A DNA stretch of 64,000 bases from Thalassia testudinum (Eukaryota; Streptophyta; Magnoliopsida; Alismatales; Hydrocharitaceae), in assembly GCA_037157565.1 (NCBI GenBank), contig JAZHRO010000002.1, positions 70,825,001-70,889,000 of the forward strand, written 5' to 3'. The position numbers were made by a program, and so were the translations under genes. The notes under the pieces were generated by a model. It worked only from the letters and a program-made list of their open reading frames with translations, was not told where the DNA came from and did no database searches. Each line of letters starts with the position of its first letter. Positions within the stretch are counted from its first letter, which is position 1. Shown here one piece after another: positions 21,824 through 57,402 of this stretch.

Positions 21824-21854
21824 TTTGTCGCGGCGACCGCGGGCGAGCGCGCGG

Positions 21855-21953: not shown

Positions 21954-21975
21954 CCGTTGATCTCCAGATCAACGG
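21954..21975. repeat. U3 inverted repeat 3 of A (10-bp arms)
   Basis: CCGTTGATCT (21954-21963) pairs perfectly with AGATCAACGG (21966-21975) across a 2-bp loop. Copy at 31566-31587. Confidence 0.9.
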
Positions 21976-22292: not shown

Positions 22293-23657
22293 TTTATTCT
22301 AGCCTTTATTTCTTTGGCGAATTCAAGAAGTAATTGCTTAGGCACTTCGTTACTTGTTAATAAGAGGAACTATACGAAGATCTTAATCTACAAAGACTAA
22401 GCAGCGCCCGGGTGTCTGCCAAAATATGAATCGCCTGAATCCTTGCTTTGTATATATAACTATACTTATGTATACGTATATATCTATATATGTCTTTTTA
22501 GAATTTTTAAAATTCAGTGTGGGTTGGTAACTTTTTACGGCTACCCAACCCACCCAAAACTCGGTCAAAACCCTAAGTGCTAAGCATCTTGGTGTGAATG
22601 TTGTGATAGACTTACTTAACGGTAATTGAGACAGACTTCGAGTTTCTACGCCTCTAGGTGACCGGAAAAGAAAATAAATTTTTGCCTGAAGGTGTATTTG
22701 TTCGATTGGTAGCTTTCTCCCTGCGTTCATTTTACTTGGGGTCAACACAAGGATTTTCCAGTGTATATCTCCCCGGCTTGTACTACTTCCCCGCTTCTTC
22801 CTTAGGTGTTTTTGGTCTTCTTTTTTTTGTGCAATTATTGAGCTGGGCTCTGGACAACCGACCAATGGGCTGTTACCCACGATCACTTGCCAGCCATACT
22901 TGTGCGGTGAAGTGTGGTTTATTTTCTTTTTTTTTTTTTTTTTAATTATTATTTTTTTTTTTTTTTACGTAGGTGGCTTCCCTAATCTCAAATGTACCTA
23001 GAGGCAGTGAAAAAGAAATGGCCTGTGGCTGGGTTCTGGACAACCTGCCAATGGGCTGTTACCCACGACAACTTGCCAGCCATACCACCCTAGAGAGTTC
23101 ATTAGCTACCCAATTTCTGTCAAAATCTCCGAGAAGTGAGTCTGTGCAAAAATGTGTGTAGATGCTTAGACTCAAAGTTTTCCTGAGTTAGAGGGTGAGT
23201 TGATAAGTCGTATACTTATTACCTTATTTATTAGGTGGATTAGAATAGCTTAAAGTTGCAAGGGTTCGCCGCTAAATCCATATTTTAATGGACACCAGGG
23301 CTAATTAAGCTTGAAGGCCTGAAAAGTCTAAGTGTTTAAGTTCTTTTTGTATTATTTCCCACTATTGACAAGTTTCTAATGCCTAAGTTTTTCTTCCTAA
23401 ATTCATTTTTTCATTTTTTTTTTCTTTTTAATCAATTAATTTATTCATTCAAACTGATTAATTAAGCTCTGGATTATGCAGTTTACCATCCCCTCCATGC
23501 TTAAGTTGGACAATGTCCTCATTGGCAGATGCATGGATGCAAAAGGGTTCAAAAAGATAGTACCTGAGTGACGTAAACTACCAGATCAGTCTGAATCCGC
23601 TGGGTTGCCTCCCAGGAAGCGCTGAGTTTAACGCCTCCAGCTGGGCGGTGCCTGGTG
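22293..23657. other. 3' non-coding region of A
   Basis: About 1.4 kb between pol and the 3' LTR with no credible protein. An open frame of 167 codons (22383-22886, -) has no recognisable domain and ends in low-complexity sequence. It contains poly-T tracts (22923-22966), a direct repeat (22849-23085), a second polypurine-like tract (23485-23500) and the GGGTTGCCTCCCAGGAAGCGC block shared with B and C (23601 on). Confidence 0.6.
22849..23085. repeat. Direct repeat in the 3' region of A
   Basis: A roughly 53-bp unit with CTGGACAACC...CCAATGGGCTGTTACCCACGA...CTTGCCAGCCATAC occurs at about 22849-22901 and 23033-23085. It occupies the same relative place as the three-unit repeat of B and C. Confidence 0.75.
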
Positions 23658-26600: not shown

Positions 26601-27455
26601 ATTGATTTCTTCAAATGGTGTCATGTGATGATACTCAGCCTTACAGAGGTCCACAGGTAATGATGGTGGCGAGTCAGAACTACGGGTTTGGTGGTCTGAG
26701 ACAGAATTGAGGGTAAGGCATTCCTCGATTAAAGTTTCCACGGGATCATGTTCCTCAATGTAATCACAATCAAAAGACTTTGTTGCCCGGAAGATATCTA
26801 ATTGCATTTTCCTGTCTCCGAAGGCGATTTCCATACATCCCGTGTCGCAATCGATGTTTGCTTTAGCCGTGGCTAAGAAAGGTCTGCCTAAGATTATGGG
26901 TGCGTTCTGTAATTTTTCAGGGACTTCCATGTCGAGCACCAAAAAGTCGACTGGGAAATAGAAGTCCTTGACCCGTACAATCACGTCCTCGACAACCCCC
27001 TTCGGGGTTTTCACTGATCTATCCGCCAGCTGGATGGTGACAGGGGTTGGTGCCAGCTCCCCAAAACCAAATTGGTGGTACAAGGTTGTGGGAATTAGGT
27101 TGATAGAAGCACCTAGGTCCAGGAGCGCTCTATCAAATGTCATGTCCCCGATGTTGCAGGAAATCAGGGGTGCTCCTGGGTCAGTTCGTTTGAGTGGAAG
27201 GTTGCTTGATATCACGGAACTGGCTTGCTCAGAGAGTACAACCTTCCTAGGTGCTTGAGGTCTCGTCTTACGCTTGGGTGTACAGGCATCCTTTAAGAAC
27301 TTGGCATAAGCGGGGATGTGTTTGACAGCTTCTAGAAGCGGAATATTAATCTGTACTTGTTTAAAAATTTCCATCAGCTCCTCAGTTTCCACAGTATTCT
27401 TTTTTCTCTTGATTGTTTCCAAGGCCTCAGGATAGGGTGTCTGGATTGGTTCCAT
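23658..27455 (-). CDS. Pol polyprotein of element A (PR-RT-RH-IN)
   Basis: A 1265-residue open frame. Domains in order: retropepsin-like protease with active-site D-L-G-A-S at residues 113-117; reverse transcriptase from about 380 to 640, with Y-S-G-Y-N-Q-V at 488 and catalytic L-M-D-D around 548-551; RNase H from about 690 to 810 (D697, E737, D763 as likely catalytic residues); integrase with the H-H-C-C zinc finger (H906, H913, C944, C947) and the D-D-E core (D976, D1035, E1071); then a C-terminal region ending near [10 protein letters not shown]. It is continuous in frame with gag except for one TAG at 27525-27527; the first ATG after it is used here as start, but translation would normally come as a gag-pol fusion. 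No env follows. All key residues seem present. Confidence 0.93.
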
Positions 27456-27524
27456 GTTTGGGTCCTTGGTTGGTGCTTCTTCTAAGTCGGGTAAAGTCTC
27501 GGGGAGAGTCGGCCATTTGGGATC

Positions 27525-29246
27525 CTAGGTTTTGGTGCCGCTTCTCAAGGCCACCGCATTCGCAGAGGCATTGGGGCCATGGGGTGATCCTTGAGAAGAT
27601 GAGGATGAAGAGGCGCCAAACCCAGGAGGTGTTTGTGGAGCCGGTTGGACCATATGAGCCTGCCCGGGGTTGCCTTGGAACCCTTGCGAATTGGGGCCTC
27701 TGTTAATTATGTTTCGCGGGTTTGGTTGTGGTTGGGAAGGTAGAGATCCTTGCTGTTTACAGTCCAAGAGTTGGCTTAACTGTCCCTTTACCAAGGCCAT
27801 TTCCTCCTGATGTTTTTGGTTCATGTCAGCCATCATCTTTATTAGGGTGTCCATTTGGTTTTGTGGGGGAGGGGCCGCCCTATTTTGGTTATATTGGGGT
27901 CTAACTGGTGGTCCTTGCTGATAGGGGGGCAAGTGTGGCTGTTGGTTTGGCCTGGGCTGGTTTTGGAATTGCGGTAGTTTCTGGTTTGTCCAACCAAAGT
28001 TGGGGTGATTACGCCAGCCGGTGTTGTAAGTGTTGGAGAAAGGGTCAGGTTTTGCATATCCTTGGACGGCTTGCACATCTTCTAGAACAGCCGATGTTGA
28101 TGAAGAAGGAAGGGAGTAATCAAGGGTCGAGGGAGCAAAGGTCCCTCCTTGGAACATGGTTGGGGGTTGTTCCAGGTTTAGTTGGGTGAAGGGTTGGACC
28201 AGGTCAACATTATGTGCTCCTTTTGCTAGGGTGAAAGTCTGCAAGGGGTTCCTGGTCTGGTTTAGAAGCTCATCAATCTTCTTGTCCACCAATTCCACTA
28301 GATCCAACTTTTTGGCAATAATGTCCATGTCAACCATTCCAGAATTTGCTTGCACCTCATAAATCCCACCACGGGGTTGACTGGATCTGTTAAACTGGTT
28401 CATGGAGGCATTGTTGAGCGAATTCTCGCTCATAGACTCAAAGAGCTCAAACGCGCTCTCCTCATCTTTGTTTAGGAAGTTTCCCCCGCATGAGGCATCG
28501 ACGAAGTTCCGTAGGTTGCTATCCAGACCGTGGTAGAAGATCTGGGCCAATTGCCACCTTGGAACTTCGTGGTGTGGGCATTTCCTCAAAAGTTCATTGA
28601 ATCTTTCCCACGCCTCATGAAATTGTTCCCCACCCTGGAGTGTGAAGGTAGTGATAGCTCTTCTGAGGGCATTGGTCTTTCCTATGGGGAAGAATTTCTT
28701 TAAAAATGCATGCCTCAGTTCCTCCCAGGTGGTGATGGGTCTACCTAGGGTTCTAAGCCAATGAGAAGCCTTGTCTCTTAATGAGAAAGGGAACATCTTG
28801 ATTAGAACAATATCAAGGCTAATGTTCCTAGGTTTTACTGTTCTTGCTATGCAGTCGAGATCTTCTAGGTGCTGAAAGGGGTCTTCATTTGAGCTTCCAT
28901 GAAAGTGGCTCTGGATTAGACTTAATACATTAGGTTTTAGCTCAAAATCGTCTCCCCCTTCGGGGATCCTAAGGTGTGGCTCGACTCTAATGGCAGAAGG
29001 GTTATAGAAATCACGGAGGGGTCTTGGCTGGTTCTGAAACGGTGGTAAATCAAGTGGTGGTTGTCCTGGTATGTCATTGAAAGGTGGTGGTTGTTCTTGC
29101 GGGTTCTGTAACCGTTGTATGGCTTGCATGATGGTGTGGATTTGTCGTTGCTGAAGCCGATGGTTAGCATTGATTTGAGCCTGGACGACAGCCATAGCAT
29201 CTGGTGGGGGTTGATCTTCAGCCTCATCTACCCTAGGTTCAGCCAT
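27525..29246 (-). CDS. Gag protein of element A
   Basis: A frame of about 573 residues from the ATG at 29246, whose start (M-A-E-P) parallels the M-A-Q-P-I-E-E start of gag in B and C; the frame itself is open further upstream to 29324. It contains the retrotransposon gag core (segment W-L-R-T-L-G...F-L-K-K-F-F-P) and a conserved Athila-type motif with G-W-R-N-H-P-N-F-G-W. The second half is Pro/Gln/Asn-rich and no CCHC zinc knuckle is evident. It assembles the virus-like particle around the element RNA. The frame ends in TAG at 27525-27527, after which the same frame continues into pol; element C has a glutamine codon at the equivalent place. Confidence 0.9.
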   Translation of the reverse strand: MAEPRVDEAEDQPPPDAMAVVQAQINANHRLQQRQIHTIMQAIQRLQNPQEQPPPFNDIPGQPPLDLPPFQNQPRPLRDFYNPSAIRVEPHLRIPEGGDDFELKPNVLSLIQSHFHGSSNEDPFQHLEDLDCIARTVKPRNISLDIVLIKMFPFSLRDKASHWLRTLGRPITTWEELRHAFLKKFFPIGKTNALRRAITTFTLQGGEQFHEAWERFNELLRKCPHHEVPRWQLAQIFYHGLDSNLRNFVDASCGGNFLNKDEESAFELFESMSENSLNNASMNQFNRSSQPRGGIYEVQANSGMVDMDIIAKKLDLVELVDKKIDELLNQTRNPLQTFTLAKGAHNVDLVQPFTQLNLEQPPTMFQGGTFAPSTLDYSLPSSSTSAVLEDVQAVQGYAKPDPFSNTYNTGWRNHPNFGWTNQKLPQFQNQPRPNQQPHLPPYQQGPPVRPQYNQNRAAPPPQNQMDTLIKMMADMNQKHQEEMALVKGQLSQLLDCKQQGSLPSQPQPNPRNIINRGPNSQGFQGNPGQAHMVQPAPQTPPGFGASSSSSSQGSPHGPNASANAVALRSGTKT

Positions 29247-30435
29247 GTTTTCAACAGAGTTACGTCGCCTAGATTCCTGCCCCAAAACACACAATTCGGG
29301 ATGCAGTGAGCGCCTCCCGTGCATACACTAGAGAAGAACTGGAGGGGATGCGGAGGGCGACAGATGCGAGAAATGTGTTTCAATCAAGCACGCAAGCCTA
29401 ATCCTTATGGTGTATTCCTTAGGAGACCTAGAAATCTCACAAAGGGTGATTAAGTCCGTAAGCACTGGACTTCCCTTCTCAAGGCTAATCTGGCCAGGTT
29501 GATTACGAGGGGATTGCAGGGAAGGTTCTTCCTTTGGCTTACGCCTCCGGTTCCATAGACCCCACAACCACGGTCGTTTGACACTGCCCCGCAGCCTAGT
29601 CACCAGATTCTACCAAGGGAATGAAAGCCAAGTGCCTAGCAGACAAAACCTCACCTTTTGAGACTTAACTCAGTCCTACCTAGGGCACGTCTACTCAGTT
29701 TTAAAGGGCTAGGATAGTGCTTGTGCTTAGGGTGATGTGATGAGGCGTTGATTGGGGTGGTGCCTCTTAATGTTCTACTTTCAAAGTGTGTGCTTCTAGC
29801 AAAACATGATTTTCAAGCAAGGATTTGTTAAGATATAGTGTCTTTTTAGTGTTTCATCCTTACTTACGTACTTTTTAGGGTTGACGTGTCTTAATTTTTT
29901 CAAACAAGTTTCAGTGGGCACGTCAAGTTCTGCACACAACTTAGTGAAAGTAGATTTCCTTTTATTTTGTAGAGGCTCTAAAACCCTAGTGTACTCATCC
30001 TGATAATCATGCAGCTTCTATTAGATGAGTCAGTTTTAGGGTTGAGTGGTGCGGCCCAGGTCAACTCACGGTGGCTTCGCAAACACCACTCAAGAGAGAA
30101 AGAAAAGAACACTCCAAGAATTTGTCCAGTATATTAGAGTGTACATTTTTTGTAGGGTGGTGTGTTAAGAATGTGGGTCAAGCAATCATTCGTCACGCCA
30201 ATTTTTTTCAGTTTTTATGATTTTTTTTTTAGCTTTTTCACGCAAGCAAACAATGAGAGAGAGAGAGTACTCACTATCGGTCCTCGAGGCGTCTACTTCC
30301 TTGCTACCATAGTGGAATGCGTCGCTTCGCCGTCCATGCGCCGAATTCCTGCATCCGTCAAGTAAAAAGGAAAGTAGGGCATTAGACGATATGAGAATGA
30401 AGGTGGAATGGAGGTGATAAAACAAATCCGTTGCC
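29247..30435 (-). other. 5' leader region of A between primer site and gag
   Basis: About 1.2 kb without a convincing gene. Short frames at 29328-29603 and 30186-30425 do not resemble known proteins. The length is typical of long untranslated leaders in large plant gypsy elements. Confidence 0.6.
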
Positions 30436-30453
30436 TCCCCGGCAACGGCGCCA
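30436..30453 (-). other. Primer binding site of A (tRNA-Asp)
   Basis: The + strand reads TCCCCGGCAACGGCGCCA, identical to the 3' end (with CCA) of plant tRNA-Asp(GUC), five bases from the 5' LTR. The - strand is therefore a perfect 18-nt primer site. Confidence 0.92.
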
Positions 30454-30458
30454 AAAAC

Positions 30459-31867
30459 TGACGTGCCTTCGTGCGTGTGTGTTAAGAGGTGTCGTTATAG
30501 TTGCACTTGATACGTCGGTTTTAAAAGAAGTAAACGGAGGGAGTCCGAGTGTCGATCTCAGGGAGGCGTGGAAATCGGATTTTGTTTACCACTTGTTGTC
30601 ACGAAAAAGGCGGAGTTTTGCTTGCGAAAGAAACGGTTTTGAAAAGCGAGAGATAGAGAGAGTTTAGGGTTAGAAAGCTCTTTGGTTTTGATCATGCACT
30701 TTAAACAGAAATTAAAAAGGCAACTAAATGAAAAATAATTTCATTGAACATGCATTCATAGTTCATGGTTTACAATATTAAATACATGCTTCAACAAAAG
30801 TAAATGAAAGCTTTAAAAGAGAGAGAGAGAGAGGTAGAGAGAGAGTGGAGAGCGACGAGGCAGCCACGGCGGTGGAGGAGGCTCCGTCGGCGGCTCGTCG
30901 TCTCCGGCGATTACAAGAGTGCCTAAGACTAGCTAGGAGAGGAGTGGAGTAGTTGCAAGTGGGAGAGGATGCCTTGAATGGTGGTAGAAGGGGGTTTAAA
31001 TAGAGTTAAGGGCTTCCTAAAAGAAGAATGTGCTTTAGCGACATCCAGAACGTCGCTAAAACCGCTTCCATATACGTCGGTGAAGGTCTGCTGCCGCCGG
31101 TCAGCCGCCCGCCCCTTTCTCTCTTCAGGCGCGATCCGTGGACGTCGAACGAGAGCCGTCCGATTGATGATCGGACGGCTGAGATCCTCCCGCGCCTGCG
31201 CTAGGATCGCGCTTCGGGCGTGCGTGCGCGCGCGCGTTTCCGCCCGGCGTGCGCGCGCGCGTGGGAGGTGGGGCGCTGTCGTCGCGCCGCGTGGCGCAAT
31301 CCTAGCCGCTCGCTTCTGATCGCGCGGCTCAATTTTGCCGCGCCCTTCGCCCGCAGACGATTTTTGCTCCGCGCGAATCGAACGCGCGTCGCCGCAACGC
31401 GGGCGTGCGCGCTAACCGTTGCGCCACGCCCGCGCTTTGTCGCGGCGACCGCGGGCGAGCGCGCGGATCTCGGCCGTTCGATCGAAGATCAACGGCCGAG
31501 ATGCGTCCTTGGCTGGCTTGGGGGCGTGCGGGCGGCGGGGGCGGGGCGACGTGGCACGTTCTAGGCCGTTGATCTCCAGATCAACGGTCAGGATTTCTTG
31601 GGCCCATTGTGGGAGCTCCGGATGTCGGATTTGGCCGATTTTGAGTTCGTTAGACTCCGTTCGTCATCCTGAATCCATCCGTGCGGTCCGATTGCTCATC
31701 TGAGGCCTGCTTTGACAAATGCTTTACACAAATGGCCATTAATACAGTTTATAAGCAATCTTGGTACTTGATGCATGCAATGCTCCTATTCTACTTTATG
31801 TTGTGCCTTTTATTCTAAAGATGGGCCATATTCAACCTAATTACTACCCCCTTGCGTGGTGTTATCA
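30459..31867 (-). repeat. 5' LTR of A (right copy)
   Basis: 1409 bp and collinear with 20847-22255 (offset 9612). By eye there are about four substitutions and no indel. It contains the same TATA, tRNA-like module and inverted repeats, and drives transcription toward lower coordinates. Confidence 0.95.
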
Positions 31868-35078: not shown

Positions 35079-36046
35079 TGTTCGTTCGAAAGTGAGATCG
35101 GGTTTGTAAATATCATGTTGCAGTATAGTTGAATGGCTTCGAAAAACAGATAAGAATTTATTACTCGAAAAATTAAGAATCTGAGGTTGAACACAGGAAG
35201 CAAATTGGTATTTAAAAACTAAGAACACAATCTCAAATTGATAACATGTGATGTTCAACAATTTATGAAGCAATAGAATTAAGTTCAATGTATATAAATG
35301 CTAAAGATATGAATAGAGATGTAAAAAAAAAATTAGATGCTTTGAGCTTTCTCTTCTTCTTTCTTCTTCTTCTCTGATGTCTTCTTCTTTCTCTTCCTTT
35401 TCTTCCTTCTCTGATTTCTCCTTCCTTCCTCTGCGACTTCTTTCTTCTTTTGCCTTCTTCTTTCTTTTCTTCTCCTGGTTTCTTTCCTTCTTTGTCTTCT
35501 GCCTTCCTTCCTCTCTGCGGCTCCTTCCTTCTCTTCTTCTTCCTTCAACTGTGCCTTCTCCGTCCTTCCTTTAGCTTCTCCTTCTTTCACCTTCAGATTT
35601 GCCTTCAGGACCTCAACTTCTTCCTTAGTCGTGCTTTCTTCCTCTGCAGCATCCTTCCTTAGCTCTTTCTTCTCTGCGGCTCCTTCCTTCAACTTCCCTT
35701 CCTGCTTTCTCTTCCTGCACAGAAGTGCAAAACCTACCCCTACCCTCCCCCGCGTACGTTCTCTCTCTTTTCTCTCTTAGGTTCGCTCTCCCAGAGCCAA
35801 TCGGGTATACGGGTCGGGTCAAACACACCCGGGTCCAAGCGCACCGGTGTGGGTGATGCACGAGGAGTGTAGGGTAATCGGGCTAGGGCAGCCAGGTCCG
35901 TGAAGGAGTGAGCGCGGACGAGGTGGGTAAGTGGGTGAGGGGACCTCACCCCATGTTCGGAGGCAACAAGCTGAGAGCACAAAAACAATATAAACCGCTT
36001 ACCTGCACCCAAAGTTTCCGAGGTGGGACTAAAGTCCCACCCGCTG
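35079..36046 (-). repeat. Truncated 5' LTR of B
   Basis: Only about 960 bp of the expected 2.72 kb remain. Similarity to the left LTR runs from TGTTCGTTCG (35079) to about 36034-36046. The lost part is the upstream portion on the - strand, including the canonical TATA box. The USE-like box and its TATA are still present. The break falls in or beside a perfect palindrome GTGGGACT-AA-AGTCCCAC (36023-36040). Confidence 0.82.
35987..36029 (-). promoter_or_regulatory. USE + TATA module in the truncated 5' LTR of B
   Basis: On the - strand GTCCCACCTCG (36029-36019), a 24-bp gap, then TTTATATT (35994-35987). Spacing is identical to the other LTR although several bases within the gap differ. Confidence 0.6.
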
Positions 36047-36985
36047 GTAATCTTAGTCGTAATAAACACAAGGTCACACGTGGTCCCTAACAAAATACTT
36101 CACTAAAAAAGTAAGAAAAAGAAGACCAACACCTCCAACACACCAACCAACCACCACAAAAGCCGTCGCAGTACCCGCTGCGACCTCTGAGCATTGTCAC
36201 CACCACCAACCGCCCAAGCCTGCCTAGAGCTTCGTCGCCACCATGACAAAGAGCTGCAACCACCCCAATCCCGAACAACCAGTACAAGCAACCACCAGTT
36301 ATGCATGTCAAGGAGGAGGGTCACACATCGAAGAGGAAAGGTCCAAGGGAGAGATGGGAGCTTTCAAAGGCGGAGAGGGGGGCTCCGATCAACCTCATAT
36401 GGTCGATTAGAGAGGCCGATCGAAGCCCAAGCTTTCAAAGTGTTTTTCACCGTGGGAGAAGTTGGGAGCTATTTTAAGTTCTCACTTGCAAATCTAACCT
36501 TTGCTTATCTACGTAATTCTTTAACTACTATCTTTTGATGTCTATAATTAAAATATAACCCATCCGCCTTGTGCTAAATGCTTCCGCATCCCTTGGCAGT
36601 TAAATTGGGCTAAGCAATGAATGGTGCTAAACATTTTTTATTCATGGAATTATCTTGATAAACGTCGATCATTGTTGGATGTTATTATTGATAACCATCT
36701 TTTACGTGATCAACATTTGTAAAAGAAATCCAATTTTCAACTCTTTTTTTTATTATTATTTTTCTTAACAGCCCCCGCCCCGTTCCGTCATCCCCATCCC
36801 ACCTTTGGAATGCGATTTCTTCGGCCTCCGTTTCGTTTCACGTCTATCTTTGGACACCCGTTCGGTTTCAGCCCTTTTTGGAAAGAGCGGTCGGGGTATC
36901 GGAAGGCCCAACAACAATGACAAGGAATCACCTTTGGGATTCAGAAATATCTCGCCCCCATTTCCATCGAAAGGGCTGGTGACAA

Positions 36986-37298: not shown

Positions 37299-41006
<3,708 letters not shown>

Positions 41007-43813: not shown

Positions 43814-46499
43814 TGTTTGTACGCTTTTGTGGGGTTTTAAAAGATAACACGTTGTAATATAGCCGACAAAATGTTCAAACAAATATAGAGAATTTTATTA
43901 CTCGAAAAACTAGAGTATCCGAGGTCGAACACAGGGAGCAATCTCAATACTTTTAAAACCAAAGAATACAACTTTTAAATGAAAATAATTGATTCAAAGA
44001 GAGAGTTATAAAAAGAATTGCTAAAAGAAAATAGAATTGGATGTCTGATTTCTTTATCAGACATCTTAAAAGTAAGTCTTCTTTCTCTCTTCTGCCTTCT
44101 TCTTCTTCTTCGTTGGCTCTTCTTCTTTTCTTCTGATCCACAGGTCTTTGTCTTCCTTGAACTTCTTTCTCTTCTCTTTCCTGTGAAGGCTTCTTCTCCC
44201 TGCCCTTTGTTTCTCTTCTGTCTTCTTCCTTTTTGTCTACAGTCCTTCTTTCTTCCTTATCTTCTCTTCTTCTGCTTCTTCTTCCTTCTTCTCCTTGCGG
44301 CTAAGTCTCCTCTCTTCACTGCCCGGCCTGCCTGCACACAGGGAAGCAAAACCTAACCCTTCCCCTCTACCCGAACGTCTCTCTCTCTCTCTACAATTCG
44401 CTCAAGGACGCTCTCCCAGAGCCACGGGTATTCGGGTCGGATCTCGCACCCGGGACCAGGCGCACCGGTAGGTGGGTGATGCGCAAGGAGTGCTCAGGTT
44501 AGGGTCGGGTCGGATCCCGCCAGATCCGCGAGGTGAAACCGCGGATGAGGCAGGCGTGGGTCAAGTAAGGGACCTCACCCCTGTGCGTTCGGAGGCGATA
44601 AGCAGATAACACAAAAACACTTTAAACCATACCTGCGCGTTGCGTTTCGCCGATGTGGGACTATCTGGCCTGCCCCAATTTCGCGCGCCCGCAGAGCTTT
44701 CTTTGTGCAATTGCCTAAGCTGCAGGCTTCGCAGCTCTACCAGCTGGACCCGAGGGCTTCGCACTTCTCGCGTGAATCTACTGCGCCTGAAGCCTGGAAG
44801 ACCTGACACCTGGAGCTACTACGAAGCTGCTTGCTGCTTCAACCGTCAATGGCGGCAGGGCTGAAAATCTGTCAAACACAAACACGGCCTATTGGCCTAA
44901 TCAGACTAGCTGGGCACCTTCGCCGTGACACGGCGAAGGTGGTGAACGGTGTTGCAGGCCGTGGGATGGCCTAGGCGTGCGTGCCTAGGTCAACCTGTGG
45001 CCGGAAGTATGGGTGAGTTCTGGGGGCTATTGCGGAGGTGTGGAGTGGCAGTGGAGGGGCGGAGATTGCTCCTTGTGGTGGGGCGGAGCTTCTGAGATGG
45101 TTGGCGAGCCGTGTGGAGGGGCGGAATGGTGGATGCGGCTCGCCGGAGGCCGGTCGGAGGCGAGGAAGATGGAGGTGGTCAGGCACTGTCGGGGGGCAAT
45201 TAACTAAAATAACAAGGGGAAAAGAGAGAGGGAAAGATAGAGAAGGTATCTGGAGTGTTCTGGAAGGGAGGGAGGCAGCGGAGCGGACGGCGCATAGCTG
45301 CCGTTGTCGGAGAAGAATAACCCTGAGGGAGGGAGCGGCGACGAGGACGAGGTCAGGGGCACGCGCGCTTGGTACGGCGCGACGCGGGAGGAAGAGGCAA
45401 AGTTGACTCTGCTGCTGGTATGGCAGCAGAGCGACGAGAAGGAGGGGAGGAGGTCGCCGGAGCTTGCGGGTCTCTTGGCTAGAGATGGAAGAGAGGAAAG
45501 TTTGGGGGAATCTCCGCCAATTCAAGTCTGAAGATCTGCGGCCGGGTCTGAAGATCCTTTTATAGGTGTTGGCCGAATCTTCTAGTGCATGGAGATCGCG
45601 CAATCACCTCCGCCGGCTCGTCGGAGAAGGAAAGAAGGTGGATACCCAAATCCCTCGTGCGTTCACACGAGAGATTGGTTCACACCAGAGATCGTGATCG
45701 GCTTTAGATGGAAGGGAATTCCTCAGAGAATCTCCCTTCCATTTCTGGGAGGGAATCTCTGAGGAATCAGAGAGTAATCCCTCTCTAAACCTGACCGGAG
45801 ATCGGTTTTGCCCTAACAATGGCGGCAGGACCTGATTGCAAAGGTGGCGAGGAACTTAGGGGGTCTCTACAATGATTTTCAAAAGATAGGGACCAAGTTA
45901 TGATTTGGGTGTACTAAATTGCAAAGTAGGTCAAGATGACCTCCACTTAGGTCCAAATTTTGGTATAAACCTAATTTGGACCTAAGGAATCCAATGGTGA
46001 AGTTGGATTTTAGGTTTGACCTCGTTTGACTGGACATTTTACGTAAAAACCCAAATTAGGTTAATTGAATGTCTAGGACCCTAATTTAGGTCAAACTGGG
46101 TTCCAAAGGCCACATTAAGTGTTATAAACCCTAAGGAGTATTTTTCCATAATTTTTAGAGGGTTTAATTGATTTTTATCCTGGCCGAAACCTTGTTAATT
46201 TAAGCAGGTCTGTTTTACGGTTACCAAATATCATTTAATTCCTAGATTGCAAATAAACCCATTTCTGATTGACTTAACCCACTTTTTATCTCATTTAGAC
46301 CATTTGACCTATGTTTTGCCTCTGAGAAATCCCGTTTATGCACTGCAATGGTAAAATTGCAGTTTTAACCTTTAATTCATGTTTTCTTCTCAGAGCACTT
46401 ATTCCTTCATTTAGGCCTTTTTCTAGGTTATGTAGGAGCTTTTATCTTCTTTATTGGGTCAAAATGAGCTAGTTATGGCTCATGATGAGGCTCTCATCA
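43814..46499 (-). repeat. 3' LTR of C (left copy)
   Basis: TGTTTGTACGC...CTCTCATCA. On the - strand it has TATA CCTATAAAAGG (about 45562-45572), a USE-like box at 44651-44661, TATA-like sequence at 44619-44626, a hairpin GCTCT-GGG-AGAGC (44410-44422), the first T4 at 44351-44348, a GA/CT-rich block (44085-44400) and AATAAA at 43894-43899. Short open frames here are not genes. Confidence 0.92.
44619..44661 (-). promoter_or_regulatory. USE + TATA module in the 3' LTR of C
   Basis: On the - strand GTCCCACATCG (44661-44651; 11/11 match to RTCCCACATCG), a 24-bp gap, then TTTAAAGT (44626-44619). The predicted start is a G near 44596. Confidence 0.62.
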
Positions 46500-46537
46500 T
46501 ACCCCCATGCGTAGCTTTTGCTAGTCCCTTAGCAAAA
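46500..46537 (-). other. Polypurine tract of C with adjacent hairpin
   Basis: The - strand reads GCATGGGGGT beside the LTR. The stem TTTTGCTA (46516-46523) / TAGCAAAA (46530-46537) differs from the stem in A by compensating base pairs. Confidence 0.65.
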
Positions 46538-48080
46538 TTTCAAGGTTTTAACTTCCGTTCTAGACTCAAAGTGTCTGTCAACAATCATGATAAGTGCTTC
46601 TCCTTTTCTTTTGTGATTAGTTCAGAATTCCGACAATAGGCCTAGAGGTACTTAAGCACCAACCAAAATCCGGACCTGACCCGCTTTAGCCTCAGTCCTC
46701 CGCAAAGGTTTCTACGGCCCACAAAAACTAACCTAGGGTTTGTTGGATTCCGCGGTTAAAGCACCCATGCTTGAGATATTTTTAGCCTAAGTTCAGTTTG
46801 CAGTGCATTTTTTTGTAAGAGAGAGATAGAAGATTTATTTGTTTGGAGAGCTTTTCTCTCTCTTTTCTTTTTATTTCTAGCTTCGGATTAGCTTCTCAAC
46901 ACGGTCTGTATCGGATTCCTCGTCCCCATCATCAATCCTCAAGGGTCCCTGGCTTTCGAGATTTCGTGATAATCCCGCCCATGGAAACCCCTAGAACCCT
47001 GGCTTTCGAGATTTCGAGATAATCCCGCCCATGGCGTTCCGTGGCCGAATTTAGACCCGGGCGATCAACATTTCGGAATAATGCCGCCCATGGTATCTGA
47101 ACCAGCAGAGTGCTTACATGCCCCCAGTAGGATATTTAAATATCCTAAGAGACAAGCACCGAGGAGACGATATGTTGTTATGCATCTTCGAGGGGAATTT
47201 CCCACCTCTCCACGTTGGGAACTCGTCCAAATCAATTTGTGTTGATTGGTCGCTCATAATCTAGGTGACTTTTTCAGAACATTAGACGCTTTTTGCGTGA
47301 TTTGGATGTTTATGCGCACTGAACCAGACTGTGTGTGAATTTGGGGTGCTTAGGTTACCAAATCCCGCAAATCGGAGGTCAGTTAACGAGGCCGAATACT
47401 TCCTAAGCCTTAGACTTAATACTTAGGCTTCACATTTTCCTCAACCTCTTGAGGATTATCCAGATTTTAACGGATACGTGAATTTTTAAGCTAAAGAATC
47501 TAGCCCAAGAGGCCTAAGACCAACGTTCCCGCTAATCTCTTGTTATGTCTCCTTAGCACTTTTTCTTTTTCTTGATTTGGTCTAGAACTTCAGTTAACCC
47601 ATTAATCTTTCACTAATGACTATTTCTCTTCATTTTCATTTTGTGCTCCTTTTTGTCATTTTACTCTTTTCCTCTTCTCATTTGTATGACCTTGAATTGT
47701 TCCTCCCCTCCATCAAGTCTTTTTTTTTTATTGAAACCCTTTCTTGATATGAATTTTTCTGACGTTTTGCACTTTCATACCCCCCCCATGCCTAAGATTT
47801 GCAATGTCCCCATTGTAAATTAAGTGGGTTCGATTTCAGCTTAGTTCATGCAATAGGACAGGTGTGTGGTGAGTGAATGGGTCGAAGTGACCTGTTGTGA
47901 ACGATTTTTAATCTCGGGTAGGGATACCTGAGGTGAAGTCGGCTGTTCTAATGGATGAACCCTAAAGTGCAATATGAATTCCGCATAGAGATGTCAGAAA
48001 AGGTTTCGGGTTTTTCAAAGAATGATGGGTTGCCTCCCGTTAAGTGCTGAGTTTTACGCCATTGGCTGGGCGCAATGAGC
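46538..48080. other. 3' non-coding region of C
   Basis: No env-like frame. It holds the three-unit tandem repeat, a second polypurine-like tract with hairpin (47775-47815) and the GGGTTGCCTCCCGTTAAGTGC block. Confidence 0.6.
46946..47093. repeat. Three-unit tandem repeat in the 3' region of C
   Basis: Three units ending CCGCCCATGG, homologous to 16229-16375 of B. The third unit has diverged most. Confidence 0.75.
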
Positions 48081-51000
48081 TCAAGAGGAATGGAGGGTAA
48101 AGGATGACTCAGCCAAATCTATATCGGTCATGTCAATGAACGGCTTGAGTCTCTGACCATTCACGACAAAGGGTTCAGAATCGTGGCTGAGTGGGCTGAT
48201 TTCAATGGCTCCATTTCCGAAGATTTGTCGGACTAAGTAGGGTCCGACCCACTTGGATCTTAGCTTCCCTGGGAATAATTTGAGTCAGGCATCAAAGAGT
48301 AAAACTTTTTGACCAGGATGAAAGACCTTTCTAGAAATGTGTTTGTCGTGAAAAGCTTTTACCCGTTCTTTATAAATTCGCGAGTTCTCATACGCGTCGT
48401 GGCGTAATTCATCGATCTCGCTCATTTGAAGTCTTCTGTGGGTTCCAGCCTTAGAAAGATCCAGATTACAGGTCCGTACTGCCCAATAGGCTTTATGCTC
48501 CAACTCGACGGGGAGGTGACATGCCTTCCCGTACACTAGTCTGAAGGGAGACATTCCTAATTGGGTCTTGTGGGCGGTCCTATAGGCTCACAATGCTTCC
48601 GGAAGCCAAGAAGACCAATCTTTTCTATCAGGTCGAACAGTAACCTGAAGGATCTTCTTGATCTCTCGGTTAGATAGCTCAGCTAGACCATTAGTTTGGG
48701 GGTGGTAAGGAGTAGAGATTCGATGTGACACCCCGTATTTGGTCATCAGTGACCTAAACTGAGCGTTAGTGAAATGGGTCCCTCCGTCGGAAATTATAGC
48801 ACGTGGGATCCCGAACCTTGAGAAAATGTTTTGATGAGGGAATTTTATAACAACTTTATGGTTGTTGGTTCGGGTCGGAATGGCTTCTATCCACTTGGAA
48901 ACATAGTCAACTGCAAGTAAGATGTATTCAAAGCCCTCCGAGATAGGGAAGGGTCCCATGAAATCAATCCCCCAAATATCAAAAATTTCGCATACCAAGA
49001 TCGGTTGTAGAGGCATCATGTCTCGATGATTCATGTTGCCCAGAGTCTGGCAACGGGAACATGCCTTACAGTGATCGTATGCATCCTTGAAAATTGTGGG
49101 CCAGTAAAAGCCACACTGGAGGACTTTTGATGCGATTTTATGTCCTGAAAAATGTCCACCGCATGCTTGGTCATGGCAAAATGAGAGTATGTCTTTGATT
49201 TCCACTTCCGCGACGCATCGTCGAATTATCTGATCATCACCAATGCGGAATAGATACGGGTCTTCACATAGGTACTACTTGGCATCGGAATGCAATTTGT
49301 CCTTTTTGGCCTTCGGCCAATCGGGCGGAATCTGATGTGATGCCAGGTAATTAACTATATCAGCAAACCATGGAAGACTTGTACTGATAGTCAAGAGGTG
49401 CTCATCAGGAAAATGTTATGTAATAGGTCCGGAAGGGTCAATTATTTCAAAAGGAAGGCGGGACAAGTGATCAGCTACCACATTCTACTTTCCTGCCTTG
49501 TCGCGAATCTCGAGGTCAAATTCTTGCAACAGCAAGATCCATCGGATTAATCGAGGTTTCGCGTCCTTCTTTGCATGGAGATGCCTCACAGCTGTGTGAT
49601 CCGAGTATATGATAACACGGGAACCCAGAAGGTATGATCTGAATTTTTCCAGGGCAAATACTACAGCCAGCAGCTCTTTCTCAGTAACTGTATAGTTACG
49701 CTGAGCCTCATCCAGTGTTTTGCTGGCGTAGTAAATGACCACAGGTTTCCCGTCAATTTTCTGCCCCAAAACCGCTCCTACAGCGAAGTCAGATGCATCG
49801 CACATGATCTCAAAGGGTTGAGACCAATCAGGGGACTGTAGGATTGGGGCTTGGGTGACTCGGTCACGTAGGATCTCAAATGCTTGAGTGCATTTCTTGG
49901 AAATTTCGAAAGGCACATCCTTGGAGAGAAGATTGGTTAGGGGGCGCGCGATTTTGGAGAAATCAGGGATAAATTGACAGTAAAAATCGACGTGCCCCAA
50001 AAAAGATCGGATGTCCTTAATCGAGCTAGGCATAGGGAGCTTGGAAATCAAGTTAACCTTAGCTCGATCCACTTGGATGCCTTTCTCCGAGATTAAATGT
50101 CCCAGGACAATTCCCTCAGGCACCATGAAATGGCTCTTTTCCCAGGAAAGAACCAAATTCACCTCGATGCATCGCCTGAGTATTTGGACCAAGTGTTGGA
50201 GGCAATCGTCAAATGATTGTCCAAAACCTAAAAAGTCATCCATGAAGACTTCCAGATAATCACCCACCATATCTGAGAATATGGCAAGCATGCACCGCTG
50301 AAAAGTTGCAGGTGCATTGCAGAGACCGAATGGCATCCTTCGAAAAGCGTAAGTCCCGAAGGGGCAGGTGAATGTGGTCTTTTCTTGGTCCTCTGGATGG
50401 ATTGCCACCTGATTGTAACCGAAGTACCCATCAAGAAAGCAGAAGAACCTATTTCCCACTAGTTTTTCAAGGATCTGATCAATAACGGTAGTGGGAAATG
50501 ATCCTTCTTCGTGGAGGAATTTAGTCTTCTGTAATCAATGCAGACTCTCCACGAGTTAGCTATTCGGGTAAGAATGACTTCTCCGGCTTCAGTCGTGATA
50601 ATGGTAAGTCCTGCCTTTTTAGGCACCACTTGTATTGGACTCACCCAACGACTGTCGGAGATCGGGTAGATGATCCATGCATCTAACCACTTTATGATCT
50701 CCTTTTTCACGACCTCCTGTAGGTTAGGGTTTAGGCGTCTTTGCATTTCTCTTGAAGGTCGTGCGCCTTCTTCTATGTAGATTCGATGTGTGCAGTATGA
50801 AGGGCTTATGTCAGTCAAATCATCGAGAGTCCATCCAATGGCTCTACGATGTTGCTGGAGAACAGAAATCAAACAGAGTTCCTGGTCAGGTGTGAGTCGA
50901 GAGTTGATAATCACAGGAAAGGTCTGATTTGAATCCAAAAACACGTACTTTAGATGTTCAGGAAGGGGCTTGAGTTCCATGACAGGATTTTCAGCAGCAG

Positions 51001-53620
51001 CGGGTGGTTCGGGGTTTGTATCAGGAGTAATGGTAGGAGTCATAGGTGTGTCTAGATCATGTTCGCACTCCTCTGTTAGCGGGTTTTGATTCTCTAGTGG
51101 TTGATCAGGAATAATCAGGTTGTCCTCTATATGTAATTCATTAGCCACGGCTCGGATATCACATATTTCCTCTATAACCCCACAATTAATCCCTTGTTGG
51201 GCCTTAAAAATGTCAATCTTCAGGTTTTGGTTCCCAAATTTTAATTATATCTGGCCCTCTTCGCAGTTTATGTTGGCCCTAACAGTGGCCAAAAAGGGTC
51301 TCCCTAATATGATTGGTGTGTCCCTTGGGTTCTTAGGTGCATCCATGTCTAGTACTATGAAGTCCACCGGGAAATAGAAATCCCGTACCCTAACAATGAC
51401 ATCCTCGAGTATTCCTTTAGGTGACTTGATGGATCGATCGGCTAACTGCAATGTCACCTCAGTGGGTTTAAGTTCAGATTCTTCAAGGTGGTCAAGGAGG
51501 GATGTAGGTATTAAATTTATGGAGGCACCTAGGTCTAGTAAGGCTCTATCAAATTGGGTTTCACCAATTTTACAGGAAATCAAGGGAGTTCCTGGGTCTT
51601 TAGCCTTGGGTGGGAGTTTGCTCAAGATGACAGAGCCGGCTTGCTCTGACAGTACGATTGGATTCCCATCCTTGGTTCGCGGCTTACGTTTAGGGTACAT
51701 GTCTTTCAAGAATCTTGCGTAAGCCGGTATGTGGCGAATTGCATCCATCAATGGGATGTTTATCTGGACCTGGTCAAAGAGCTTGATCAGATCCTCCTCG
51801 GGAGCCACGGGTTTGGTTATCCTTTTTCCTTTGGTCAAGGCCTCAGGAAATGGGATCCTAGTTGGCTCCTCTAGGATAGGTCCAGGTTCTTGATCTGGGA
51901 CAGTAGTATCTTGGATAACTATCCTAGGGTCTTGGTTATCATCAGGCTTGGAGTGGTTTGGATAATGTGGGTCTTGGGTTGTTTTACCACTACGTGTTGT
52001 TACAGAGTTTAATCCGGCCTGATTCTGGTTTAGGTTTGGTAGGAGGGGTGGCTGCTGCTGAAATCCTGCATAAGATGTTGAAGCTTCCATCCCGTCTAGT
52101 GATGGAGCAGTAGGGGCCTGATAAATCACATGTGTTTGGCCTGAATTTGGATTCATAACACGCTTCTGGGTTAGCACGTTATTTGGGTTGGGCAGAGGTT
52201 GCGAGGGAAGGGTACCAGGTTGGCGGGAATTTGCCATCGGGGCCAGTTGGTTGCGAACCTCTGTGATCTCGTCCTTGTGCTGTTTTTGCATTGCCGCATT
52301 CGTCTTTTGAATGTCAGCCAGTGTTTGAAGGATAAGAGTCAGTTGATCCTGGTTTTGCCCGGATTGGTAGGTGGGATTGGGCCGGGGCTGAGGCGGCTGA
52401 TATGGACGAGGGGCTTGCGGACGGGGTTGATATGGTGGTCTTTGAGAATTTCCCGCCCATTGAAAGTTAGGATGATTTCGCCATCCAGGGTTGTAGGTAT
52501 TGGAGAATGGGTCATTCTGGATGGCGTTGAGATCCTCGCAGTTCTGAGGAACCTCAGGAAAGTCAGAATACGAGGGTTCAGAGTTCTCCCAACTCTAGTA
52601 GAATGGATCGGAGGTCACTCCGGTCCGAGAGGTAGACGGGGGTGGATATGGGTCCAGCCCCTTGGCAGATTGGTGATAGATGTTTTGCACAGTTTCCCTT
52701 GCCAGAGGTGGTCGTGCAAAAGAGTTTTGCACAGAGGTGGCTTGCTGCAAATGTCGAGTTAGCTCGTCCACCTTCTTTTCTATGATAGAAACCTTGTCCA
52801 ACCGACTGGCCATTAGTTCCAAGTCAACAAAATTGGACAGGTCCTGCATCTCATGTGTCCCTCTCAGATTCGTCGATGTGCGGGCATTCGTCCTGTCGAA
52901 TAAGCCCACGGAGTCATTATTTATGGAGTTCTCACACATGTTTTCGAGAATCTCCCACACTGTGTCCTCGTGTTGACCCATGATGTTTCCTCCGCATGTT
53001 GCATTGACGAATAAACGAATGTCTTCACAGAGTCCCTGGTAAAAAGACTGGACTTGTTCCCACTTAGGAACTCCGTGATGGGGATACTTTCGCATGAGAT
53101 CTAAGAATCGATCCCATGCTTCGTGAAGAGGTTCTTCCGGTTGTTGAGTGAAATGAGTGATCTGGTGGAGCAAGGCATTCGTCCGGCCAACGGGGAAGAA
53201 TTTTTTCAAAAATTCAGACTGCAGTTCCTTCCATGTGTTGATCGGACGGGTCTGAGTTTGATACCAGTGTGCGGCCTTGTCCATGAGGGAGAACGAAAAC
53301 ATTTTCATGAGTAGGATATCCCAGTTTTGTACATCTGACCCGAAGGTCTGGGCCAGATACTTGAGTTGTTTAATGTGTTGGAATGGATCCTCAGAGTTAA
53401 GCCCGTGAAACTTTGGTATGGCATGAATCATATTGGGCTTCAGTTCAGAATCAGGTCCTCCAATCGGGATTCGTACTCGAGGTTCGATCGCCACCGCAGC
53501 AGGATTATAGTGATCTCGCATCATAGGTCGTTGCGGTGGGTTTACAAAGTTCTGAAAGAGATCATTAAGGCGTTGAAGTTGGTGTTCAAGGTTATTCTCC
53601 TCTTCGATGGGTTGTGCCAT
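48081..53620 (-). pseudogene. C gag-pol pseudogene
   Basis: Gag starts at the ATG at 53620 (M-A-Q-P-I-E-E). Gag core, linker, protease (D-L-G-A-S, about 51520-51535), RT (about 49900-50800), RNase H (about 49490-49850), integrase zinc finger (about 49060-49200) and integrase core (48588-49000) are recognisable in order, ending near 48081. Lesions include TAG at 52595, TAA at 51245, a one-base deletion near 50484 relative to B, stops at 49485 and between 49205 and 49450, and a Trp-to-stop change at 48588. Several lesions fit C-to-T decay. No intact enzyme can be made. Confidence 0.9.
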
Positions 53621-54700
53621 GATGGAAGAAGAAGGAGAACCAGGGTATGAATCAGATGAAAGATTTATGTAGTGGGGTTGCTGCACAAACAAGGGCGTCG
53701 AGGCTTGGCCTCGACGAGAGTGAATTTCTAAAGGAGGTCTTAAGGGTGGCCTTAAGGACCTCCTACCGAACATGCACTGAAGGATGTGATGAGATTAAAA
53801 GGTGCTGGACCCAATCAAGACACCCAAAAATTGTTGGGTGACTATAGAGGTTCGGGGTGGATGGACCCCTTAGTCAGAAAAGGTTGTCCACTTGAGAAAT
53901 ACCTGGGCAGCCAGAGAGGGAGAGTCCCGCAAAGACCCGTACACGATAGAGCATCCCCATGAGTTACAGGGTTTCCCCCACCCGACCTCTCTTGTCACTG
54001 CGGTTCCAGGTAGACCAGAATGGGGACCTTGACCTCTTAAGTCTACCTTTTTTACTTTAAGATCAAGGTGCTTAATGTTCCACTTGAACTTTTAGGTATT
54101 TTCAGTGAAAAAGTGACCTAATTTTAAGGTTGGTTGACCCAAGGGATCAACTTCACCTTTTGTTCCTTTAAGAGCTTTTAGGTCCTTTTCTTTTAAGGTT
54201 CAAATGGATTAAAAGCCTGATTTGCTTAGGGTTCTTCTTGTGTAGATCTTTTCAATCAAGGTTTAGGCACACCTCTTTGTTTAAGATAAGGTGTGTCTCT
54301 AAAAACCCTAGCTTTGTAATCCTTAACTTGGCTCTAGTGGGTCCAATTTAGTTGCCTCAGAATTTAGTACCTAGGGCTCAATCAAGAAAGTTTTAGCCCT
54401 AGTTACCTTAGTTGAATGAGCAGATAAAAATGTGTTGAAATGAAAATCAGGCAACTTGATGAGTTACTAAATATGAAACAGGTAGCCCTAAGTTGATTGT
54501 TCTTTCTTTTTTTTTCCTTTCAGATTTTGAGAGAGTTAAGAGGGAGGGCTTATGGAAATTGCCTGTTCCTTGGAGTGTCTGTTGTACAGCTGCTCTTCTT
54601 TCCTTTTTGCTTTCCTTGTTTTGAGCACAACAAAAGAGAGGAGTTAGGTCAAATATTGGATCAAAAAGTTGTAATCAAAAGCTTTAAAAGTGCCCGTTGC
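53621..54700 (-). other. 5' leader region of C
   Basis: Non-coding leader between primer site and gag, collinear with the leader of B. No gene seen. Confidence 0.6.
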
Positions 54701-54718
54701 TCCCCGGCAACGGTGCCA
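54701..54718 (-). other. Primer binding site of C (tRNA-Asp)
   Basis: The + strand TCCCCGGCAACGGTGCCA matches the tRNA-Asp 3' end at 17 of 18 positions, three bases from the 5' LTR. Confidence 0.9.
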
Positions 54719-54721
54719 AAA

Positions 54722-57402
54722 TGTTTGTATGCTTTTGTGGGGTTTTAAAAGATAACACGTTGTAATATAGCCAATAAAACGTTCAAACAAATATAGAGAA
54801 TTTTATTACTCGAAAAACTAGAGTATCCGAGGTCGAACACAGGGAGCAATCTCAATACTTTTAAAACCAAAGAATACAACTTTTAAATGAAAATAATTGA
54901 TTCAAAGAGAGTTATAAAAAGAATTGCTAAAAGAAAACAGAATTGGACGTCTGATTTCTTTATCAGACGTCTTAAAAGTAAGTCTTCTTTCTCTCTTCTG
55001 CCTTCTTCTTCTTCGTTGGCTCTTCTTCTTCTTTTCTTCTGATCCACAGGTCTTTGTCTTCCTTGAACTTCTTTCTCTTCTCTTTCCTGCGAAGGCTTCT
55101 TCTTCCTGCCCTTTGTTTCTCTTCTGTCTTCTTCCTTTTTGTCTGCAGTCCTTCTTTCTTCCTTATCTTCTCTTCTTCTGCTTCTTCTTCCTTCTTCTCC
55201 TTGCGGCTAAGTCTCCTCTCTTCACCGCCCGGCCTGCCTGCACACAGGGAAGCAAAACCTAACTCTTCCCCTCTACCCGAACGTCTCTCTCTCTCTGCAA
55301 TTCGCTCAAGGACGCTCTCCCAGAGCCACGGGTATTCGAGTCGGATCTCGCACCCGGGACCAGGCGCACCGGCAGGTGGGTGATGCGCGAGGAGTGCTCA
55401 AGTTAGGGTCGGGTCAGATCCCGCCAGATCCGCGAGGTGAAACTGCGGACGAGGCAGGCGTGGGTCAGGTGAGGGACCTCACCCCTGTGCGTTCGGAGGC
55501 GATAAGCAGATAACACAAAAACACTTTAAACCATACCTGCGCGTTGCGTTTCGCCGATGTGGGACTATCTTGCCTGCCCCAATTTTGCGCGCTCGCAGAG
55601 CTTTCTTCGTGCAATTGCCTAAGCTGCGGGCTTCGCAGCTCTACCAGCTGGACCCGAGGGCTTCGCACTTCTCGCACGAATCTGCTGCGCCTGAAGCCTG
55701 GAAGACCTGACGCCTAGAGCTGCTGCGAAGCTACTTGCTGCTTCAACCGTCAATGGCGGCAGGGCTGAAAACCTGTCAAACACAAGCACGACCTATTGGC
55801 CTAATCAGACCAGCTGGGCACCTTCGCCGTGACACGGCGAAGGTGGTGAACGGTGCTGCAGGCCGTGGGATGGCCTAGGCGTGCTTGCCTAGGTCAACCT
55901 GTGGCCGGAAGTATGGGTGAGTTCGGGGGTCTATTGCGGAGGTGTGGAGTGGCAGTGGAGGGGCGGAGATTGTTCCTTGTGGTGGGGCAGAGCTTCTGAG
56001 ATGGTTGGCGAGCCGTGTGGAGGGGCGGAATGGTGGATGCAGCTCGCCGTAGGTCGGTCGGAGGCGAGGAAGATGGAGGTGGTCAGGCACTGTCGGGGGG
56101 CAATTAACTAAAATAACAGGGGGAAAGGAGAGAGGGAAAGATAGACAAGGTATCTGGAGTGTTCTGGAAGAGAGGGAGGCAGCGGAGCGGACGACGCGTA
56201 GCTGCCGTCGTCGGAGAAGAACCCTGAGGGAGGGAGCGGCGACGAGGATGAGGTCAGGGGCACGCGCGCTTGGTACGGCGCGACGCGGGAGGAAGAATCG
56301 AAGTTGACTCTGCTTCTGGTATGGCAGTAGAGCGACGAGAAGGAGGGGAGGAGGTCGCCGGAGCTTGCGGGTCTCTTGGTCGGAGATGGAAGAGAGGAAA
56401 GTTTGGGGGAATCTCCGTCAATTCAAGTCTAAAGATCTGCGGCCGGGTCTGAAGATCCTTTTATAGGTGTTGGTCGAATCTTCTAGTGCGTGGAGATCGC
56501 GCAATCACCTCCGCCGGCTCGCCGGAGAAAGAAAGAAGGTGGATACCCAAATCCCTCGTGCATTCGCACGAGAGATTGGGTTCACACCAGAGATCGTGAT
56601 CGGCTTTATATGGAAGGGAATTCCTCAAAGAATCTCCCTTCCATTTCTGGGAGGGAATCTCTGAGGAATCAGAGAGTAATCCCTCTCTAAACCTTGCCGG
56701 AGATCGGTTCTGCCCTAACAATGGCGGCAGGACCTGATTGCAAAGGTGGCGAGGAACTTAGGGGGCACTCTTCAATGATTTTCAAAAGATAGGGACCAAG
56801 TTGTGATTTGGGTGTACTAAATTACAAAGTAGGTCAAGATGACCTCCACTTAGGTCCAAATTTTGGTATAAACCTAATTTGGACCTAAGGAATCCAATGG
56901 TGAAGTTGGATTTCAGGTTTGACCTCGTTTGACTGGACATTTTGCGTAAAAACCCAAATTAGGTTAATTGAATGGCTAGGACCCTAATCTAGGTCAAACT
57001 GCGTTCCAAAGGCCACATTAAGTGTTCTCAACCCTAAGGAGTATTTTTCCATGATTTTTAGAGGGTTTACTTGATTTTTATCTTGGTCGGAACCTTGTTA
57101 ATTTAAGCGGGTCTGTTTTAGGGTTACCAAATGTCATTTAATTCCTAGATTGCACATAAACCCATTTCTGATTGACTCAACCCACTTTTTATCTCATTTA
57201 GACCATTTGACCTATGTTTTGCCTCTGAGAAATCCCATTTATGCACTGCAATGGTAAAATTACAGTTTTAACCTTTAATTCATGTTTTCTTCTCAGAGCA
57301 CTTATTCCTTCATTTAGGCCTTTTTCTAGGTTATGTAGGAGCTTTTATCTTCTTTATTGGATCAAAATGAGCTAGTTATGGCTCATGATGAGGCTCTCAT
57401 CA
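54722..57402 (-). repeat. 5' LTR of C (right copy)
   Basis: 2681 bp, TGTTTGTATGC...CTCTCATCA, homologous to 43814-46499. It contains TATA CCTATAAAAGG (about 56459-56469, - strand) and an intact USE + TATA module. Confidence 0.92.
55523..55565 (-). promoter_or_regulatory. USE + TATA module in the 5' LTR of C
   Basis: On the - strand GTCCCACATCG (55565-55555), a 24-bp gap, TTTAAAGT (55530-55523). It is unchanged from the other LTR despite scattered substitutions around it. Confidence 0.62.

Follow-up and report, generated by a model that had tools for sequence, protein, structure and literature searches.

Two classes of Gypsy-type LTR retrotransposons in Thalassia testudinum carry within their LTRs a core promoter that is built like that of a plant U6 gene, in which an upstream sequence element (USE, RTCCCACATCG), a 24-bp gap, a TATA-like box and a predicted start on a pyrimidine-purine (Y-R) step 65 nt from the first USE base follow each other in fixed order. 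The sequence comparisons support an snRNA-type core promoter with Pol III spacing that has been kept across thousands of LTRs. The best explanation, to which we assign a probability of roughly 0.5, is that a U6-type snRNA promoter serves as the core promoter of these class I and class II LTRs, with Pol III making a short RNA and Pol II the long one.

The window analysed here is a 64-kb stretch of DNA for which the initial annotation had listed six such sites, and all six were recovered where it had placed them, with a box-to-box distance of 24 bp in each; since the boxes there are not TATAWA, this gap was assigned by hand. The upstream box had been described as an RTCCCACATCG-type USE, and the type holds for all six sites, with exact matches at 4558, 44661 and 55565 and one mismatch at 9462, 14011 and 36029 (CCCACCTCG). 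At up to one mismatch, the window contains seven USE matches, six of which are these sites, against 1.26 expected. On the plus strand, the exact USE GTCCCACATCG of LTR B (4558-4568) is followed by the TATA-like box CATAAATT (4593-4600), and the one-mismatch variant ATCCCACCTCG of LTR C (9462-9472) by TATATTAC (9497-9504); similarity assigns B to class I and C to class II. The other four sites are on the minus strand. In element E, the one-mismatch variant GTCCCACCTCG stands at 14001-14011 in the 3′ LTR and, as identified also by self-comparison, at 36019-36029 in the truncated 5′ LTR, with TTTATATT as the TATA-like box at 13969-13976 and 35987-35994, respectively. In the 3′ LTR of element F, an exact GTCCCACATCG (44651-44661), the 24-bp gap (44627-44650) and the TATA-like box TTTAAAGT (44619-44626) follow each other directly, and its 5′ LTR has an exact USE at 55555-55565 and TTTAAAGT at 55523-55530. 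An AT-rich box therefore follows the gap in 6/6 sites, as had been claimed, but because the boxes read CATAAATT, TATATTAC, TTTATATT (twice) and TTTAAAGT (twice), TATAWA occurs at gap 24 in 0/6. The proposed pairing of LTRs had to be redrawn: the two-LTR pairs are 14011/36029 (E) and 44661/55565 (F), while two LTRs each for B and C were not borne out, self-comparison of the window having found no second LTR copy for 4558 or 9462.

Element F (43814-57402, minus strand) is 13.6 kb long and complete in outline, with two TG..CA LTRs, a 5-bp TSD, a PBS, and gag and protease domains between the LTRs. Its 3′ LTR occupies 43814-46499 (minus strand, 2686 bp, TG..CA, TSD CACCC), and its 5′ LTR, 54722-57402 (minus strand, 2681 bp), has the USE at base 1838 and is followed by the PBS TGGCACCGTTGCCGGGGA. 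Similarity between the E LTRs ends 5 bp upstream of the USE (36019-36060, minus strand), where sequence unique within the window forms, together with the USE, the palindrome GGTGGGACTTTAGTCCCACC. Nested between the E LTRs is element D (20845-31867, minus strand), a young Gypsy element with LTRs 99.7% identical and an apparent TSD GTGCC; no USE was found in its LTRs (20845-22255 and 30457-31867), and the box is therefore not general to Gypsy-type LTRs here. An open frame for an FKF1/ADAGIO3-like host protein lies at 39399-41006 (plus strand), its top named matches being from monocots at 80-82% identity.

The snRNA genes of the host served as spacing controls. A USE-like box is present at 3/5 host U6 loci (GTGCCACATCA, GTGCCACATCG and GTACCACATCG); a pattern search did not find one at L052, and the 121 bases inspected at L051 hold none. 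In the three genes with the box, the distance from USE to AT-rich box, read by eye, is 24-26, and that from USE to +1 is 65, 65 and 64 nt. The host U6 RNA begins GTCTCTTCGGAGAC, and a 54-base U6 5′ sequence used as a query gave no match. At the U2 loci, a USE is present in two of four, with a gap of 32 and a USE-to-+1 distance of 77 at L043, and a gap of 32-33 and a distance of 75, counted by hand from coordinates, at L116; none was found at the weaker U2 matches L114 and L115. The reading of 24 as a U6-type gap is supported by this comparison (24-26 in host U6 against 32-33 in host U2), by which LTR classes I and II have U6 spacing and class III mostly U2 spacing. According to PMC9845283, PMC11961915 and PMC12268498, USE and TATA suffice in dicots, an extra MSP box is needed in monocots, and the USE and TATA of Pol III genes are one helical turn closer; the first two describe this spacing as a major determinant of Pol III in plants. 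In the LTRs, too, the TATA-like box stands a helical turn nearer to the USE than it does in Pol II snRNA genes. The MSP consensus RGCCCR, sought on the plus strand within 150 bp, occurs in 4/12 LTRs and 0/3 host U6 genes. Among 20 other USE-bearing loci, the only known RNA gene is one U2.

Genome-wide searches extended the spacing analysis well beyond the window. Across the 4.26-Gb host genome, RTCCCACATCG-N20-30-TATAWA matches at 9,954 places and its reversed pattern at 21, and RTCCCACATCG-N25-45-TATAWA gives 510 against 45 for the control; these counts and the excess in the window reject chance matching. Among the 100 matches listed for gaps of 20-30, all on contig C1, the gap is 24 in 94, 23 in three, 26 in two and 29 in one, and the 100 listed for gaps of 25-45 have modes at 32 (41 matches) and 26 (15). 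When all 15 listed gap-26 places were inspected, five (L029, L030, L035, L038 and L044) proved to have the downstream box of class I and, at 24, an AT-rich 8-mer; at L025 and L027, the pattern counted a gap of 39/40, yet TTTAAATT and CATAAATT stand at 24. Four matches with an identical 41-base sequence, one of them (L056) in class II, lie about 52.67 kb apart at 6026980-6185015 of C1, as in a tandem duplication.

Because the non-redundant rows had been picked by pattern, LTRs were also retrieved through a box downstream of the start, which yielded 11,871 copies genome-wide against 0 for the control. Among the 100 retrieved copies listed, again from C1 only, 44 have a strict upstream match, with a gap of 24 in 43 and 23 in one; 24 of the remaining 56 were inspected (four from the retrieval and 20 fetched), and each has a USE and, at gap 24, an 8-mer with 6-8 A/T. 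Within the 68 copies inspected of the 100 listed, the gap is thus 24 in 67/68 and 23 in one. The USE of the 68 is exact in 60 (44 by pattern and 16/24 by reading) and has one mismatch in eight. The constant gap that the initial annotation had described for its six sites thus extends to genomic copies, at 24 in 94 of the 100 listed matches and 67 of the 68 anchored ones, and a variable gap is not what they display.

Sorting by similarity downstream of the TATA divided 93 records into class I (42), class II (14), class III (32) and five others, with L012, L013 and L015-L017 in no class. Drawn from the loci and the six window sites, these records each have 300 nt or more ahead of the USE and 900 nt or more behind it, a flank rule that left out the one-kb loci L029-L048 and L085. 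The gap is 24 in class I (Athila-like) and in class II (window element C and its relatives), and in class III (Copia-like) it is 32 in 20/32, 33 in 6/32 and between 25 and 37 in the six others; since class I and II loci come mostly from the 20-30 list and class III loci from the 25-45 list, these class ranges are limited by the patterns. Four class I loci and a single class II locus (L076) carry the primer site TGGCGCCGTTGCCGGGGA exactly; we take a PBS of this type to be Athila/Tat-like. On sequence criteria, class I is Athila-like Ty3/Gypsy, with the TG..CA LTRs, 5-bp TSD and PBS type found in F, the name resting on the initial annotation and the PBS. The primer site TGGTATCAGAGT lies at USE+448 in L113 (class III) and at USE+1472 in L111; from it and from LTR appearance, class III is presumably Copia-like. 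The USE-bearing Copia-like LTRs are L009-L011, L014, L019-L024, L026, L028 and L094-L113, with mostly U2 (Pol II)-type spacing of 32-33 bp. Outside the LTR classes, L015-L017 are three USE-bearing repeats about 1.33 kb apart with TATATA at gap 45. For the sequence beyond the core, common descent of classes I and II was considered and set aside, the only window matches being short and read as GA-rich.

It is the length of the gap that is kept, while its sequence is free to change. This contrast, already noted among the window elements, was borne out in 21/21 non-redundant class I LTRs, the mean pairwise identity of which is 77% downstream of the start (minimum 57%). Of the twelve bins measured in these LTRs, the gap shows the lowest conservation, with a mean modal 4-mer fraction of 0.31, and control segments of 24 nt are of constant length in all rows in only 3/59 cases downstream and 0/6 upstream.

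At USE+64/65, the start position of the host U6 RNA, a Y-R step is present in the sequences of 21/21 class I and 13/13 class II non-redundant LTRs. It stands at USE+65 in 23/24 anchored copies, L133 lacking the purine, and in 35/42 class I records it heads a GCCTC box there. Boxes, spacing, Y-R step and the match with host U6 genes together give the LTR core promoter the anatomy of a U6 promoter. At about USE+80 to +97, class I has a dyad, GGTGAGGTCCCTCACC, nearly the whole of which is covered by the 21-base pattern behind the 11,871 genome matches; it is likely a factor-binding site just past the start.

Downstream of the predicted start, class I LTRs have their first run of four or more T at +230 to +246 in 21/21, with no TTTT before it. 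In the 3′ LTR of F, the predicted transcript, drawn from U6 geometry and the T-run, would begin with its +1 at USE+65 and end with the first TTTT (44348-44351), thus covering 44348-44596 on the minus strand, so that the interval 44348-44661 spans the USE through this TTTT; its counterpart in the 5′ LTR, likewise predicted to end at TTTT, would cover 55254-55500 on the minus strand. TTTT is a minimal terminator. In class I it is invariant in 21/21, a conservation equalled by few other modal 4-mers, and consists of only four T in 20/21. A TTTT-free stretch closed by an invariant TTTT is what a Pol III RNA about 245 nt long would have, although a run of only four T is short. The stretch itself is ordinary for class I composition, and TTTT avoidance is weak as a stand-alone argument for this class, given that 87% of local shuffles lack TTTT before +200. 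For class II, 63% of local shuffles are TTTT-free before +200, and 12/13 rows are TTTT-free; a T5 occurs at +249 to +287 in 8/13, a T4 at +78 in one, and none before +450 in four. In class III, the first T4 has a median position of +49. Conserved structure in the predicted 245-nt RNA was also considered: RNAalifold gave a z of -6.5 against column shuffles, and single-sequence folding a z of -1.26. As the covariation term did not back the first result and shuffled columns make a weak control, we do not claim structure. A known RNA gene within the LTR was rejected, the 3′ LTR of F having no Rfam match at E<=1.

By the host's own measure, the LTRs have the USE, TATA and spacing of a U6 gene, and we therefore read them as bearing a U6-type promoter usable by Pol III. 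The initial proposal of a Pol III-type snRNA promoter stands as regards anatomy, the gap and USE-to-+1 distance being those of host U6 and unlike those of U2; as regards the polymerase, sequence reasoning leaves the odds of actual Pol III use about even. On this core, a USE-binding factor resembling SNAPc would assemble together with TBP in a Pol III-selecting phase, and the class I product of Pol III would be an uncapped RNA, about 245 nt long, ending at the conserved T-run. Pol II would supply the long genomic RNA, acting either through a TATAAAAG-like box some 900 bp upstream or, at times when it occupies that site, from the same start. We infer the factor binding, the polymerase, the short RNA and any role that it may have. 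Counting against this reading are the minimal length of the TTTT terminator, the unremarkable composition of the TTTT-free stretch, the five of 13 class II rows without the T5, a predicted RNA with neither covariation nor an Rfam match, the scarcity in the LTRs of the MSP box (which the three host U6 genes lack as well) and the two U6 and two U2 loci at which no USE was found. The upstream canonical TATA, which the initial annotation had mentioned, is real: a TATAAAA-/TATATAA-type (TATAAAAG-like) box lies 835-904 bp before the USE in 7/9 class I LTRs aligned, the exceptions in which it was not found being L025 and B, and in the 5′ LTR of F it is TATAAAAG at 56458-56465 (minus strand), 900 bp ahead of the USE. 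This box could supply the long RNA in class I. A fuller version, which we hold at somewhat short of even odds, has Gypsy LTRs at both ends of the elements, in about ten thousand copies, carrying a true U6-type Pol III promoter that would make a short uncapped RNA, with a distinct Pol II promoter, lying about 900 bp upstream, providing the long RNA and a Copia-like lineage having taken the Pol II-spaced version of the same snRNA promoter.

Less probable, but a serious contender, is that USE-24-TATA is an ordinary Pol II LTR promoter, in which the USE factor and TBP set the start at USE+65, the U6-like phase is tolerated, and Pol II is recruited by other U3 sequences or a downstream box. Retrotransposons this large need long RNA, and AATAAA occurs 663-832 nt past the TATA in 10/10 class I copies scanned (that of F lies roughly 80 bp short of the LTR end). 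In three class II copies, no canonical TATA was found within about 1.4 kb upstream, one having TATATAT at -1448; lacking a near upstream TATA, class II may therefore have to make its genomic RNA from the USE promoter, which favours Pol II. The USE-bearing Copia-like LTRs, too, must presumably use Pol II, and at the human type 3 promoters of U6 and 7SK, Pol II is loaded as well, at the start used by Pol III (PMC6023835). Against this alternative stands the spacing, which in the LTRs is that of host U6 and not of host U2, is described as a major Pol III determinant in plants (PMC11961915 and PMC9845283), and is mostly of the U2 kind in the Copia-like class of the same genome; the closure of the class I TTTT-free stretch by an invariant TTTT also speaks for Pol III. 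It is improbable that the USE-like motif is bound by an unrelated activator, with the constant spacing reflecting that factor and TBP and no link to snRNA machinery: the Copia-like gaps of 25 to 37 do indicate that such a box is able to function when the spacing is looser, but identity over the 11 USE bases combined with a gap, a USE-to-+1 distance and a Y-R step like those of host U6 would be much coincidence. A module without present function, inherited from a common ancestor and multiplied by amplification, is very improbable, for although most copies come from large related families, common descent accounts for much of the sameness, and a TTTGTG-like stretch past the TATA is common to many rows of classes I and II, the gap changes freely in sequence and hardly in length while USE and TATA stay, at 77% mean LTR identity.

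The U6-type reading of the class I and II LTRs has partial counterparts among known systems. With plant U6/U3-type (type 3) Pol III promoters, the LTRs share the USE RTCCCACATCG, the closer TATA and a start about 65 nt from the USE, as measured on three U6 and two U2 host genes; they differ in lying within LTRs of large retrotransposons and not before a small-RNA gene, and in that their use by Pol III is a prediction. The closest published cases that we found are the TRIMp3 elements (PMC10886601) and, in trypanosomatids, the Pr77 promoter (PMC8190864). TRIMp3 elements (Cassandra, Helenus and Ajax) are likewise LTR retroelements with a Pol III promoter, here a predicted one, in the LTR, but they are short and non-autonomous, with 5S- or tRNA-derived promoters, whereas F, a Gypsy element, is 13.6 kb long and its snRNA-type promoter is of the gene-external kind; F is coding, is not short, and by Rfam has no small-RNA-derived (5S, tRNA) LTR sequence. 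Pr77 is also a retrotransposon promoter, to which TBP and SNAP50, a subunit of SNAPc, bind, but it lies at the 5′ end of non-LTR elements, and its direct SNAP50 binding is weak. According to a commentary (PMC10226582), the trans-species miRNA genes of Cuscuta are another instance of a USE with Pol III features beyond classical snRNA genes, in miRNA genes rather than LTRs. Plant telomerase RNA and AtR8 (PMC6765143) share the USE, TATA and terminator, and theirs is a Pol III RNA of about 260 nt that is lost in a SNAPc mutant; they are host genes of single-copy type, and the F LTR has no Rfam similarity. In the literature searched, with most subscription journals outside coverage, no description of a USE in LTRs was found.

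LTR retrotransposons are regarded as Pol II units, and such Pol III-driven LTR elements as we found in print are short ones whose promoters are of the 5S or tRNA type. If the reading is true, a gene-external snRNA promoter multiplied some ten thousand times would be a new transcription mode for a retroelement, and it would constitute a large sink for SNAPc and Pol III. With classes I and II Pol III-spaced and the Copia-like class Pol II-spaced, both halves of the plant spacing rule are found in the mobile elements of one genome, and these different retroelements therefore offer a natural test set for the plant USE-TATA spacing rule.
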